In this document: in pieces, positions 5,150-30,213 of the stretch
Position numbering within the stretch: position 1 is the stretch's first letter
Layout of the letters: each line of letters begins with the position of its first letter
Translations under genes and position numbers: made by a program
Assembly (NCBI GenBank): GCA_007125985.1
Contig: SLCE01000188.1
Location: forward strand, 1 to 36,998
Length of the DNA stretch: 36,998 nucleotides
Direction: 5' to 3'
Source: Ectothiorhodospiraceae bacterium
Lineage (GTDB): Bacteria > Pseudomonadota > Gammaproteobacteria > Nitrococcales > Aquisalimonadaceae
The notes under the pieces: generated by a model
The model's database searches: none
Seen by the model: only the letters and a program-made list of their open reading frames with translations
What the model was told of the DNA's origin: nothing

Positions 5150-6031
5150 ATGACTCAGCGTATCAAGAAAGTGGTATTCCCCGTGGCTGGCCTCGGCACG
5201 CGGTTTCTGCCGGCCACCAAAGCCAGCCCCAAGGAAATGTTGCCGGTGGTGGACAAGCCGCTGATCCAATACGCCGTGGAAGAGGCTGTGGCCGCCGGGG
5301 CCGAGACTCTGGTCTTCGTCACCGGCCGCACCAAACGCGCCATCGAGGATCACTTCGACAAGGCCTACGAGCTGGAGATGGAGCTCGAGGCCAAGGGCAA
5401 GCATGCCATGCTTGAACTGGTGCGCAACACGGTGCCCAGTGGCGTGAACTGCATTTATATCCGGCAGGGCGAGGCGCTGGGCCTGGGGCATGCAGTACTC
5501 TGTGCGCGGCCCATTGTCGGCAACGACCCCTTCGGCGTGATTCTGGCGGATGACCTGATTGACGGGAACGGCGAACAGGTCATGTCCCAGATGGCCAGGG
5601 AATTCACCGAGCACGGGTGTTCGTTACTGGGTGTGGAACAGGTGCCGCCCGAGGAAACCAACAAATACGGCGTGGTCAGTACCGGGGACTTCAATCACGC
5701 ACTCAGTCGGGTCACGGGCATTGTGGAAAAGCCTGAGCCGGACGAGGCTCCGTCCAACCTGGCCGTGGTGGGCCGTTACATACTCTCACCGCGCATCTTC
5801 CAGTTGCTGGAGCACACCGCCCCTGATGCAAGGGGTGAGGTTCAGCTTACGGATGCCATTGCCCGCCTGCTGGATTACGAGACCGTGTTGGCCCATGAGT
5901 TTCGTGGCGTGCGCTACGATTGCGGCAGCAAGCTCGGCTACCTCAAGGCGACCGTGGAATACGGGCTGAAACATCCGGAACTCGGCCCCGAGTTTGCCGC
6001 CTACTTGCGGCATTACCACAACGCCGATTAA
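5150..6031 (+). CDS. galU: UTP-glucose-1-phosphate uridylyltransferase
   Basis: Makes UDP-glucose from glucose-1-phosphate and UTP, feeding Ugd and glycan synthesis. The 293-residue protein has the nucleotidyltransferase signature [20 protein letters not shown] with the metal/UTP-binding region near the N terminus, then [14 protein letters not shown]. Further GalU features are [29 protein letters not shown] and [20 protein letters not shown]. The length is standard. ATG at 5150 is preceded by AGGA and a 5-base spacer. It follows pgi by 109 bases and may be read from the same transcript or its own promoter. The grouping ugd-pgi-galU makes UDP-glucuronate supply a coherent unit. Confidence 0.97.
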
Positions 6032-7963: not shown

Positions 7964-9694
7964 ATGACCAACCCGAGCAATGAGCTTATTGCCCCGCATG
8001 GGGGTGTGCTGAAGCAACTGCTGGTCGACGAAAGCCGCGTGGCTGAACTGCGTCAGGAAGCCGTCGACCTGCCGTCCTGGGATCTGACCGAACGTCAGGT
8101 CTGTGACACGGAGCTACTGCTCAATGGCGGCTTCTCACCGCTGGACGGCTTCCTCACCCAGGCGGATTTCGATGCGGTTTGCCGCACCATGCGGCTGGCA
8201 GACGGCACCCTCTGGCCCATGCCCATCAATCTGGATGTCACCGAGGCCTTTGCCGAGGGGCTGCATCCCGGCGCCCGCATTGCCCTGCGCCACCCGGAGG
8301 GCATGGTCCTGGCCGTGATGACGGTGGAAGACATCTACCGGCCGGATTTCCGCGCGCAGGCGGAACAGGTGTTCGGCGCCGCCGACGAGGCGCACCCGGA
8401 GGTGTTTCGCCTGTTCCACCAGACCAACCCGGTGTACCTGGGTGGCCGGCTTGAAGGACTGGAACTGCCCCCGCACCACACCTTCAAGCACCTACGCCAC
8501 ACGCCACAGGAACTGCGCGAGTGGTTTGCCAAACTGGGCTGGAACAATGTGGTGGCCTTCCAGACCCGTAACCCCATGCACCGGGCCCATGTGGAATTGG
8601 CGAAGCGCGCGTCCCAGAAGGGGGCGGCCAATCTGCTGATCCACCCTGTGGTGGGTATGACCAAGCCGGGGGATGTGGACTACTTCGTGCGTGTGCGCTG
8701 CTACCAGGAGGTGATCAAGCACTTCCCCGAGCAGACCACCACGCTGTCGCTGCTCCCTTTGGCCATGCGCATGGGCGGACCCCGTGAGGCGGTCTGGCAC
8801 GCCATCATCCGCAAGAATTACGGCTGTGCCCGCTTCATCGTGGGGCGTGACCACGCCGGGCCGGGCAAGAACAACCAGGGCGAGGATTTCTACGGCCCCT
8901 ACGATGCACAGGAACTCGTGCAGAAGTACCAGGACGAACTCGGCATCGTCATGCAACCCTTCGAGGAAATGGTCTATGTCGAAGACCTGGCCCAGTACGT
9001 GCCCCGCTCGGAAGTGCCGGAAGGCGCGCGTGTTCTGAACATCTCCGGAACGGAACTGCGCCGCCGACTCAAGGAAGGGCTGGAGTTGCCGGAGTGGTTC
9101 TCGTACGCGGAGGTCATCTCCAAGCTCCGCGAGGCCTTCCCGCCGAAGCGGGAGCAAGGCTTCACCGTGTTCTTCACCGGCCTGTCCGGTTCCGGGAAAT
9201 CCACTGTCGCCAATATTCTGATGGCCAAGCTGATGGAAATCGGCACCCGGCCGGTGACGTTGCTTGACGGAGATCTGGTGCGAAAGCACTTGTCTAGTGA
9301 GCTGGGTTTCTCGAAGGAGCACCGGGAGATCAACATCAAACGCATCGGCTACGTGGCCAGCGAGATCACCAAGAACCGCGGCATCGCTATCTGCGCGCCC
9401 ATTGCCCCTTACGCTGCCACGCGACGCGAGGTGCGGGAGATGGTCAGCCAGCACGGCGGTTTTATCGAGGTGCACGTGGCCACGCCGCTGGAGGTCTGCG
9501 AGGAACGAGACCGGAAGGGGCTGTATGCCAAGGCGCGGGCCGGGCTGATCAAGCAGTTCACGGGTATTGATGATCCCTACGAGGAACCGGAAAACGCGGA
9601 GGTGGTGGTGGATACCTCCCGCTTCAGCGCCGACGAGCTGGCGCATCAGGTGCTGCTGCAGCTGGAGAAACAGGGATACATTGACCGGGAGTAA
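7964..9694 (+). CDS. Bifunctional sulfate adenylyltransferase / adenylylsulfate kinase
   Basis: Activates sulfate in two steps: ATP plus sulfate to APS, then APS to PAPS. The 576-residue protein has a PUA-like N-terminal domain (about 1-165). The homomeric ATP sulfurylase domain (about 170-390) has QTRNPMHRAH, containing the HxxH catalytic pair (His206, His209), and GRDHAGPG at 294-301. The C-terminal APS kinase domain (about 398-576) has the P-loop GLSGSGKS at 406-413 and DGD at 435-437. The order Sat-CysC is that of Aquifex and fungal enzymes, not the animal order. This Sat is unrelated to the CysDN type. ATG at 7964 follows GAGG with a 5-base spacer; an in-frame TTG at 7937 would add nine residues. 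It follows the SLC13 permease and precedes cysQ. Confidence 0.95.
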   Translation: MTNPSNELIAPHGGVLKQLLVDESRVAELRQEAVDLPSWDLTERQVCDTELLLNGGFSPLDGFLTQADFDAVCRTMRLADGTLWPMPINLDVTEAFAEGLHPGARIALRHPEGMVLAVMTVEDIYRPDFRAQAEQVFGAADEAHPEVFRLFHQTNPVYLGGRLEGLELPPHHTFKHLRHTPQELREWFAKLGWNNVVAFQTRNPMHRAHVELAKRASQKGAANLLIHPVVGMTKPGDVDYFVRVRCYQEVIKHFPEQTTTLSLLPLAMRMGGPREAVWHAIIRKNYGCARFIVGRDHAGPGKNNQGEDFYGPYDAQELVQKYQDELGIVMQPFEEMVYVEDLAQYVPRSEVPEGARVLNISGTELRRRLKEGLELPEWFSYAEVISKLREAFPPKREQGFTVFFTGLSGSGKSTVANILMAKLMEIGTRPVTLLDGDLVRKHLSSELGFSKEHREINIKRIGYVASEITKNRGIAICAPIAPYAATRREVREMVSQHGGFIEVHVATPLEVCEERDRKGLYAKARAGLIKQFTGIDDPYEEPENAEVVVDTSRFSADELAHQVLLQLEKQGYIDRE

Positions 9695-9721: not shown

Positions 9722-9829
9722 GGCCGGAGTACGGGGCAGCGCGACGGACGCGCCGTGAATACGTCCCTGTAGGCTTGTCGGCCGCGTCCATGCGGCCGAC
9801 AGTCCGTCGCGCTGCCCCGTACCCCGGCC
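9722..9829. repeat. Large nested palindromic intergenic element
   Basis: Arms 9722-9749 and 9802-9829 are complementary at 27 of 28 positions, the single mismatch being A9728 against C9823; the inner 21 bp are perfect. The 52-base centre contains a second perfect hairpin, TGTCGGCCGC (9776-9785) with its complement (9792-9801) around GTCCAT, abutting the right arm. The centre also carries GTGAATACGTCCCTGTAGGC. From memory, intergenic palindromes with a very similar centre occur in many gammaproteobacterial genomes; I could not verify this. It fills most of the gap between sat-cysC and cysQ and could act as a terminator, an mRNA-processing site or a miniature mobile palindrome. Confidence 0.85.
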
Positions 9830-10788: not shown

Positions 10789-10841
10789 GGAAATACCGGG
10801 AATAGATCAGTGTTTCCTCAAGGGGGAGGCATCCGCCCCTT
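10789..10841. repeat. Dispersed small element, copy 1
   Basis: GGAAATACC, then GGGAATAGATCAGTGTTTCC (10798-10817), then AAGGGG with a later CCCCTT. The same order of blocks is found at 29596-29656, and the 20-base core matches that copy at 18 positions. GGAAA and TTTCC form the outer arms and GGGG/CCCC a second stem. The right half overlaps the last codons and stop of the amidotransferase on the minus strand. From memory, GGAAGCACTGATTTATTCC-like inverted repeats are common near insertion-sequence ends in Proteobacteria, so a miniature element is plausible but unverified. Confidence 0.7.
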
Positions 10842-28139: not shown

Positions 28140-28199
28140 TGCATCTGTTCTTACCGTTAAGCGGATGCACCCTGCTACTCTATGCCGGTTCCGTCCGGC
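28140..28199 (+). promoter_or_regulatory. Structured leader candidate upstream of metY
   Basis: TGCATC (28140-28145) pairs with GATGCA (28164-28169); inside it CTTA (28150-28153) pairs with TAAG (28158-28161) around CCGT, giving a nested stem-loop. GCCGG (28184-28188) then pairs with CCGGC (28195-28199) around TTCCGT. These precede the sulfur-amino-acid gene metY by 70-130 bases. I do not recognise a known SAM or SAH riboswitch consensus. The nearest promoter candidate overlaps the first stem, so the transcription start is uncertain. Confidence 0.35.
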
Positions 28200-28268
28200 C
28201 GGGGGTGTTCCGGCTGCCTGCGGACACGAGATTCATGGCTATCGAACAACCACTCCGGAGGACCACAT

Positions 28269-29543
28269 ATGAAACTGGAAACCCTGGCCGTTCATGGCGG
28301 CTACAGCCCCGACCCCACCACCAAGGCCGTGGCCGTGCCTATCTACCAGACCACGTCCTATGCTTTTGATAACACCCAGCACGGGGCGGACCTGTTCGAC
28401 CTGAAGGTGGAAGGCAACATCTACACCCGCATCATGAACCCCACCAACGCGGTGCTGGAGCAGCGGGTGGCGGAGATGGAAGGTGGCATCGGCGGACTGG
28501 CGGTGAGCTCCGGCATGGCGGCCATTACCTATGCCATCGAGACCATCGCCGAGGCCGGTGACAACATTATCGCCACCAGCCAGCTCTACGGCGGCACCTA
28601 TAACCTGTTTGCCCACTCCCTGCCGCGCCGGGGCATCGAGGTGCGCTTCATCTCCCATGATGAGCTGGACAATCTGGCGTCGAAGATCGATTCCCGGACC
28701 AAGGCGGTGTTCTGCGAAACCGTGGGCAACCCGTCCGGCAATGTGGTGGACATCGAGCGCATGGCGGAAATCGCCCACGCCAACGGTGTGCCGCTGATCG
28801 TGGACAACACCGTGCCCACGCCATACCTGTGGCGCCCCATTGAGCACGGGGCTGATATCGTCATCCACTCGCTGACCAAGTACATGGGCGGCCACGGCAC
28901 CACGGTGGCCGGAGTGGTGGTGGATTCCGGCAAATTCCCCTGGGCGGAGCACAAGGAACGGTTCGCCATGCTGAATGAGCCGGATCCGTCCTACCATGGC
29001 GTGGTGTATACCGAGGCCCTGGGCCCGGCGGCCTTCATCGGCCGCTGCCGCGTGGTGCCACTGCGCAATACCGGTTCGGCGCTGTCGCCGTTCAATGCCT
29101 TCCAGATCCTGCAGGGCATCGAGACCCTGCCGCTGCGCATGGATCGCCACTGCGAGAACGCGCAGAAGGTGGCCGAGTACCTGGAAGGCCACGAACAGGT
29201 GACCTGGGTGAAGTTCGCCGGCCTGAAGAGCAGCCCGGATCACGCCCTGGCGCAGAAGTACATGGCCGGCCGCGCCTCCAGCGTGCTCAGCTTCGGCATC
29301 AAGGGCGGCGCCGAGGCGGGGGCGAAGTTCATCGACGCCCTGCAGCTGATAACCCGTCTGGTGAACATTGGTGATGCAAAATCCCTGGCCTGCCACCCGG
29401 CCACCACCACCCACCGGCAGCTCAACGACGCCGAGCTGGAGTCCGCCGGCGTGAGCCGGGACATGGTGCGGCTGTCCATCGGCATTGAACATGCGGATGA
29501 CATTCTGGCTGATATCGAACAGGCCCTGGCCGCGGCCCGCTGA
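28269..29543 (+). CDS. metY: O-acetylhomoserine sulfhydrylase (PLP-dependent)
   Basis: Makes homocysteine directly from O-acetylhomoserine and sulfide, a methionine-biosynthesis route that uses the product of sulfate reduction. The 424-residue protein of the Cys/Met-metabolism PLP family has YQTTSYAF, YTRIMNPTNAVLEQRVAEMEGG, SSGMAAITYAIETIAEAGD, and the lysine-bearing HSLTKYMGGHGTTVAGVVV, where the Lys forms the PLP Schiff base. The long insertion AEHKERFAMLNEPDPSYHGV is typical of MetY and separates it from MetB/MetC. The C terminus has SLACHPATTTHRQL. ATG at 28269 follows GGAGG. The upstream open frame to 28182 lacks support. The family name homocysteine/O-acetylserine sulfhydrylase also fits. 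Confidence 0.94.
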   Translation: MKLETLAVHGGYSPDPTTKAVAVPIYQTTSYAFDNTQHGADLFDLKVEGNIYTRIMNPTNAVLEQRVAEMEGGIGGLAVSSGMAAITYAIETIAEAGDNIIATSQLYGGTYNLFAHSLPRRGIEVRFISHDELDNLASKIDSRTKAVFCETVGNPSGNVVDIERMAEIAHANGVPLIVDNTVPTPYLWRPIEHGADIVIHSLTKYMGGHGTTVAGVVVDSGKFPWAEHKERFAMLNEPDPSYHGVVYTEALGPAAFIGRCRVVPLRNTGSALSPFNAFQILQGIETLPLRMDRHCENAQKVAEYLEGHEQVTWVKFAGLKSSPDHALAQKYMAGRASSVLSFGIKGGAEAGAKFIDALQLITRLVNIGDAKSLACHPATTTHRQLNDAELESAGVSRDMVRLSIGIEHADDILADIEQALAAAR

Positions 29544-29553
29544 ACCAGTTCCG

Positions 29554-29585
29554 CCACACCCGCCCCGGAACCGGGGCGGGTGTGG
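29554..29585 (+). terminator. Strong GC hairpin after metY
   Basis: Arms 29554-29568 and 29571-29585 are perfectly complementary over 15 bp (CCACACCCGCCCCGG and complement), with AA at the tip. It starts 11 bases after the metY stop. No T tract follows, so it may act as a transcript 3'-end stabiliser or a pause site; it is positioned as a terminator. Confidence 0.6.
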
Positions 29586-29595
29586 GTGGTCCATG

Positions 29596-29656
29596 CTTAA
29601 GGAAGCACCATGGGAATACATCAGTGCTTCCTTAAAGGGGCAGGTGCCCCTTTAAG
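29596..29656 (+). repeat. Dispersed small element, copy 2, with two competing hairpins
   Basis: TTAAGGAAGCAC (29597-29608) pairs perfectly with 29624-29635, a 12-bp stem with a 15-base loop. CTTAAAGGGGCA (29631-29642) pairs perfectly with TGCCCCTTTAAG (29645-29656), a second 12-bp stem. Both stems need bases 29631-29635, so only one can form at full length. The core GGGAATACATCAGTGCTTCC (29612-29631) matches the copy at 10798-10817 at 18 of 20 positions. The second stem ends nine bases before the GGAG ribosome-binding site (29665-29668) of the DUF411 gene. Confidence 0.75.
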
Positions 29657-29676
29657 CGTATTCCGGAGATTTTGTC

Positions 29677-30213
29677 ATGCCCTCAAGAAAGGCTCTTGCC
29701 CGACGCCTGATCCTGCCGGTGCTGTTGCTGTTCGCCGCTGTGGCTGCCGCCACCTGGTGGGCGGAGCGCAATGCTGCCCAGGCGGAGGCGGCAAACGACG
29801 GCGTGCCGCAGGAACTGGCCGCCACCGACCAGGATATCAAGGTGTATAAGACCCCCTGGTGCGGTTGCTGCACCGACTGGGTGGAGTACCTGGAGCGGGA
29901 GGGCTTCACCACGGATGTGGTGGACGTGGATCAGGGCGAACTCAATGACATCAAGCAGCAGGTGGGGCTGCGTCAGGAACTGGCGTCCTGTCACACGGCC
30001 TTTATCGACGGCTACGTGATTGAGGGCCATGTGCCCGCTGAGGATATCCGCACTCTGCTGGAACAGCGACCGGACGGTGTGCGCGGCATTGCCGTACCGG
30101 GCATGCCCATCGGATCCCCGGGTATGGAACAGGGTGATCGTCGCGACCCGTACCATGTGGTGGCGTTTGACGCCGACGGCAACGCGGCGATCTTCTCCAG
30201 CCACAACCAATAG
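29677..30213 (+). CDS. DUF411 metal-binding protein, membrane-anchored or exported
   Basis: Periplasm-facing DUF411 protein, likely a copper-binding or thiol protein. It has 178 residues: a basic start and hydrophobic segment (about 10-28) act as signal or anchor. A thioredoxin-like domain begins VYKTPWCGCCTDWVEYL with Cys62, Cys64 and Cys65, followed by SCHTAFIDGYVIEGHVPAEDI with Cys105 and His106. The C terminus has the Met-rich GMPIGSPGME typical of the family. ATG at 29677 is preceded by GGAG with an eight-base spacer. It stands between metY and a protease gene. Many relatives are linked to copper resistance, but no copper genes are in this window. Confidence 0.88.
   Translation: MPSRKALARRLILPVLLLFAAVAAATWWAERNAAQAEAANDGVPQELAATDQDIKVYKTPWCGCCTDWVEYLEREGFTTDVVDVDQGELNDIKQQVGLRQELASCHTAFIDGYVIEGHVPAEDIRTLLEQRPDGVRGIAVPGMPIGSPGMEQGDRRDPYHVVAFDADGNAAIFSSHNQ

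Follow-up and report, generated by a model that had tools for sequence, protein, structure and literature searches.

The leader of a DUF411 gene in an Ectothiorhodospiraceae bacterium carries two perfect hairpins that share bases, and the question raised by this locus is whether they form an RNA switch or came together in some other way. The leader lies in a 36,998-nucleotide stretch of contig SLCE01000188.1, the whole of which was analysed (hereafter, the window). The initial annotation described two hairpins just before the gene, read them as mutually exclusive stems of an attenuator or translational switch, and added that the element was a dispersed repeat that may have been placed there as a mobile sequence. 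We scanned the window for perfect inverted repeats, with a minimum arm of 10 and a maximum loop of about 60. This whole-window scan returned 14 repeats, including both leader repeats and a hairpin at 29554-29585. The first leader repeat has 12-bp arms at 29597-29608 and 29624-29635 with a 15-nt loop, and the second has 12-bp arms at 29631-29642 and 29645-29656 with a 2-nt loop as drawn; both are 100% complementary and their arms overlap at 29631-29635, exactly as described. The placement before a DUF411 gene was also confirmed, as the product matches PF04214 and GGAG at 29665-29668 precedes the ATG at 29677. Elsewhere in the window, at 9729-9822, after a gene ending at 9694, a 21-bp perfect inverted repeat has a 52-nt loop that contains a 10-bp hairpin. 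The features of the locus are as follows:

28182..29543, + strand: upstream gene, a Cys/Met-metabolism PLP enzyme (PF01053, E 1.9e-139), 3' end as in the syntenic congener locus L081
29554..29585: perfect hairpin of 15 bp that follows the upstream gene and has no T tract; L081 has a similar one
29593..29600: ATGCTTAA, presumed left foot of a host palindrome, detached by the insert (from the reconstructed empty site)
29597..29600: TTAA on the left of the 31-bp unit, probably one copy of a target duplication
29601..29631, - strand: 31-bp inverted-repeat unit, an IS5-type MITE in shortened form (TTCC following terminal repeat positions 1-27)
29632..29635: TTAA on the right of the unit, the other copy of the probable duplication; with 29631 it makes up the shared bases
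29632..29659: remaining host palindrome, TTAAAGGGGCA GG TGCCCCTTTAAGCGT, single copy in the genome
29665..29668, + strand: GGAG, presumed ribosome-binding site, read from the sequence
29677..30213, + strand: DUF411 gene, 178 aa (PF04214, E 1.2e-27)
10798..10817, - strand: truncated terminal-repeat fragment of the MITE family, 90% over 20 nt

The upstream gene is placed by its profile match and we take it to be metZ-like. It is codirectional with the DUF411 gene, from which it is separated by a gap of 133 nt. The DUF411 protein also has a weak glutaredoxin-like stretch (PF00462, E 5.2e-5).

The leader has a stable predicted fold, at -36.2 kcal/mol versus -25.1 kcal/mol for shuffled sequences (z -3.4), and 0 of 200 shuffles were as good. 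The minimum free energy structure of 29590-29690 holds both hairpins together, closed by an outer stem (AUGCUUAA / UUAAGCGU). The predicted arrangement of the two stems is a three-way junction, which gives way to two adjacent stems when upstream bases are omitted. When the ensemble of 29590-29676 was computed, the inner pairs of the first stem had probabilities of 0.93-1.0 and those of the second stem 0.87-1.0, except for the innermost pair of the second stem, which is sterically impossible. Competition between the stems is limited to their shared foot of five base pairs. The stems are therefore not mutually exclusive, since the cores of both stand at 0.87-1.0 in one ensemble; the two hairpins are predicted to form together in the RNA.

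We then looked for the sequence signals of a regulatory leader. No terminator-like site, T tract or promoter consensus match was found in 29480-29760, and a looser two-hexamer promoter scan (at least 8/12, + strand, first hexamer starting at 29481-29670) also gave none. Rfam matches and tRNA or tmRNA genes were both absent from the window. The predicted unpaired fraction of the GGAG, with and without the insert, was 0.26/0.29, 0.47/0.57 and 0.20/0.21 for three transcript starts. In the congener G007, the DUF411 orthologue (locus L081; 71% identity) is preceded by the same upstream gene and hairpin, yet neither palindrome is present in its leader, the only one among the congeners with that upstream gene. 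Absence from the leaders of close relatives, which the initial annotation had named as evidence against its own reading, is thus what this sole syntenic congener leader displays. Different hairpins (GGGACGG/CCGTCCC) occur in the L081 leader, so that both species have a structured gap downstream of the upstream gene even though the two sequences are not homologous. In G006, a different sequence lies upstream of the DUF411 orthologue, and no homologous leader was found in the genomes searched. We folded the 80-base leaders of 12 orthologues, our own included, and obtained a z of -3.9 here and of -1.6 to +2.2 for the other 11. A conserved leader structure was absent from the 11 other orthologue leaders that were oriented and folded.

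These results bear directly on the reading of the leader as an attenuator or translational switch of the DUF411 gene, with two alternating stems and possibly a response to metal. The stability of the fold, the position just upstream of the ribosome-binding site and the 5-nt overlap of the stems speak for a switch. However, both stems coexist in the predicted fold, terminator and promoter matches are lacking at the locus, accessibility of the ribosome-binding site changes little when the insert is taken out, and neither the syntenic congener leader, the other orthologue leaders nor Rfam offers a counterpart. We consider a switch highly improbable.

The first stem has a different explanation. 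It corresponds to a 31-bp unit, 29601-29631, with TTAA on either side. The 27-nt core of this unit occurs in 74 copies in the 3.24-Mb genome at up to 3 mismatches, and the reversed pattern occurs in none. Across 14 genomes of the family, at the same threshold, the core was found 74 times in this genome, 127 times in G007, 3 times in G006 and once in G013; the remaining 10 had no copy, and the reversed control pattern was absent from all 14. Re-scanning the loci of this genome at up to 5 mismatches raised the number to 78 copies, whose interiors continue into one sequence (L) in 27, into another (R) in 20, have the short form in 10 and differ in 21. An exact YTAR tetranucleotide, the target duplication reported for IS5 in the available text of PMC10359306, lies at the outer edge of 47 of the 78. 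The window has one other copy of the family, the truncated one at 10798-10817, where the family end GGAAACACTGATCTATTCCC stands on the minus strand without a recognisable partner.

Most core copies are the ends of a MITE of about 263 bp. Fifteen pairs of cores face each other within 4 kb, and we tested the flanks of the 13 that span 54-264 bp, leaving out the 3062-bp pair on C77 and the 746-bp pair on C206. Identical 4-bp flanks were found in 7 of the 13, compared with a shuffled mean of 2.4 (p=0.0013). Five pairs are 256-264 bp long and the others 222, 194, 182, 118, 89, 68, 63 and 54 bp. The C77 pair (C77:13167 to 16202, 3062 bp) was rejected as a composite element, as its flanks are unlike. 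The 54-bp element (L042 295-348; G000:C164:7194-7247) pairs two terminal repeats back to back, is bordered by TTAA at each end, and is an intermediate in a length series that runs down to 31 bp.

The family is linked to an IS5 transposase through its interior. MITE positions 148-263 match positions 1447-1332 of locus L152 in the same genome at 84%, about 40 bp from a fragment of an IS5-family transposase. The fragment shares 67% identity with residues 277-321 of a transposase that is intact in the congener G006 and matches the IS5 family profile NCBIfam NF033581 with 341 bits. The G006 element extends over L175 762 to 1963; its left flank is CTAG, and its right flank, at the end of the contig, is CTAA. 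Because its ends resemble those of the MITE only loosely (10 and 6 mismatches of 27), it appears from sequence likeness to be a relative of the MITE and not a proven parent; the exact parent was not found in the genomes searched. Among the PF01609 matches of this genome, a MITE-like end was present only at the C232 fragment, with none within the locus of a 577-aa frame on C237, and a PF05598 search of the genome gave no match. With multiple copies bearing terminal inverted repeats, YTAR target duplications and a related autonomous IS, the dispersed family qualifies as a MITE of IS5-type origin. The claim of a dispersed repeat, possibly placed as a mobile sequence, thus stands for the first stem and fails for the second, which is single-copy.

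How did the unit come to be only 31 bp long? The 10 copies of this length contain terminal-repeat positions 1-27 plus TTCC, ending ...GTGCTTCC. GTGC is present at positions 24-27 in 9 of these 10 versus 36 of the 68 others (Fisher p 0.038). It also lies within the terminal 8 bp at the right end, and the interior of a MITE of about 263 bp would most likely have been deleted between the two GTGC copies to leave the 31-bp palindrome. In the short class, flanks are identical in 2 of 10, this site being one of them, against a shuffled mean of 1.6 (p=0.54), and TTAA is self-palindromic, which makes a flank match cheap. Given that matched flanks are not in excess, a duplication here is argued from this single site and from the MITE class. 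Within the unit the two ends overlap and do not offer a transposase two separate ends to bind; at only 31 bp, we therefore file it as a MITE remnant, not a mobile MITE.

The ten short copies with one junction require either recurrent deletion or copying of the short form. We take them for remnants formed in place; that a transposase needing two ends would move 31 bp seems unlikely. Their mean distance is 3.3 within the class and 3.6 to other copies, so they are not clearly a separate lineage; the short copies C108:1689 and C57:4068 are each other's nearest neighbours. The short form is found mainly in this species, with 10 copies versus 1 seen in G007. That the 31-bp hairpin is a copying unit of its own, among the smallest mobile palindromes, and that its landing in a palindrome converted a plain hairpin into a three-way junction by which the leader now modulates the DUF411 gene, is in our judgement very unlikely.

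The second stem belongs to the host. Its bases, 29632-29655, have no second occurrence in the genus or across 54 genomes of the order, so we rejected the idea that this palindrome is a shared operator or a dispersed repeat. When the 31 bp and one TTAA are removed, the palindrome arms become ATGCTTAAAGGGGCA / TGCCCCTTTAAGCGT, with 13 Watson-Crick pairs plus T-G and A-T, versus 12 before. Since removal lengthens the palindrome, the simplest history is an insertion into its left arm, and target duplication is the best account of most of the shared bases. A host palindrome with these arms, including one G-T pair, would originally have stood upstream of the DUF411 gene; with its single TTAA, the uninterrupted form would have read ATGCTTAAAGGGGCAggTGCCCCTTTAAGCGT. 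An IS5-type miniature element would then have inserted at the TTAA of the left arm and duplicated it, and the duplicated TTAA together with the terminal C of the element would now be read as shared bases. The host palindrome itself may be a weak terminator or a binding site. The G007 leader lacks it too and so is not a clean empty site; the comparison is one across species. Overall, a decayed IS5-type MITE inside a host palindrome is the best explanation of this leader (probability roughly 0.8), and its switch-like geometry is probably a by-product of target duplication. What we infer in this account is that the element inserted at this site, that its interior was lost between the GTGC copies, and that it has no function.

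The element is most likely passive today. Judged with a simple purpose-written gene finder, each of the 10 short copies is intergenic (6 in tandem, 3 in divergent and 1 in convergent gaps), at varied distances, and of the other 68 copies, 33 lie between genes, 6 inside a frame, 2 across the end of one and 27 too near an edge to be assigned. This varied placement, the absence from the congener leader and the largely unchanged accessibility of the ribosome-binding site make the unit look like a tolerated insertion and not a leader module. A scrap of MITE placed by chance could nonetheless have a modest effect, as an RNase III site, an mRNA stabiliser or a block to read-through, as has been reported for Correia elements. 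It sits in the gap between codirectional genes, it would form a long stem if transcribed, and RNase III cleavage and regulatory effects of MITEs are cited in the available text of a review (PMC10969869). The mixed orientations and distances of the short copies speak against such an effect, which we think unlikely.

The genome also has a gene for a REP-associated tyrosine transposase (RAYT), on contig C117 (NF047646, 204 bits), and the 31-bp palindromes could be REP-type units that it moves, being short, imperfect and found in gaps. By eye, however, the RAYT gene (L031 1-800, G000 contig C117) is flanked by a different, GTAG-headed repeat; L031 contains no core copy, the nearest listed on C117 being at 6004, and terminal repeats, YTAR duplications and a link to IS5 mark the family. 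We rejected a RAYT/REP origin, which is extremely improbable with another repeat accompanying the gene. Short dispersed palindromes in this genome thus belong to at least two unrelated families.

In kind, a decayed copy of an IS5-type MITE interrupting a host palindrome is something already known. The family resembles IS5-family MITEs in its terminal inverted repeats, lack of coding capacity, YTAR flanks, location mostly in gene gaps and continuity with an IS5 transposase fragment; unlike them, the copy here is reduced to 31 bp with overlapping ends and has no exact parent IS among the genomes searched. The G006 IS5 shares the genus, related ends, CTAG/CTAA flanks and 67% identity to the transposase fragment, but differs in its ends. 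REP/BIME elements with RAYT are likewise short dispersed palindromes, but lack the IS5 hallmarks of this family. The Correia elements (NEMIS) of Neisseria differ from the 31-bp unit in sequence, duplication and size. As here, where the stem is predicted, they are MITEs in leaders with stems in the mRNA, according to the available text of PMC10969869. The available text of the literature on MITEs, IS5 and YTAR, DUF411 and copper, and transposable elements of Ectothiorhodospiraceae gives no description of this MITE family.

No large biological question depends on the leader finding. It illustrates that a target duplication in a host palindrome can pass for an RNA switch with two states and so mislead riboswitch searches based on structure. 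It also documents, in a genus of the Ectothiorhodospiraceae, an IS5-derived MITE family of high copy number whose lengths step down from about 263 bp to 31 bp.
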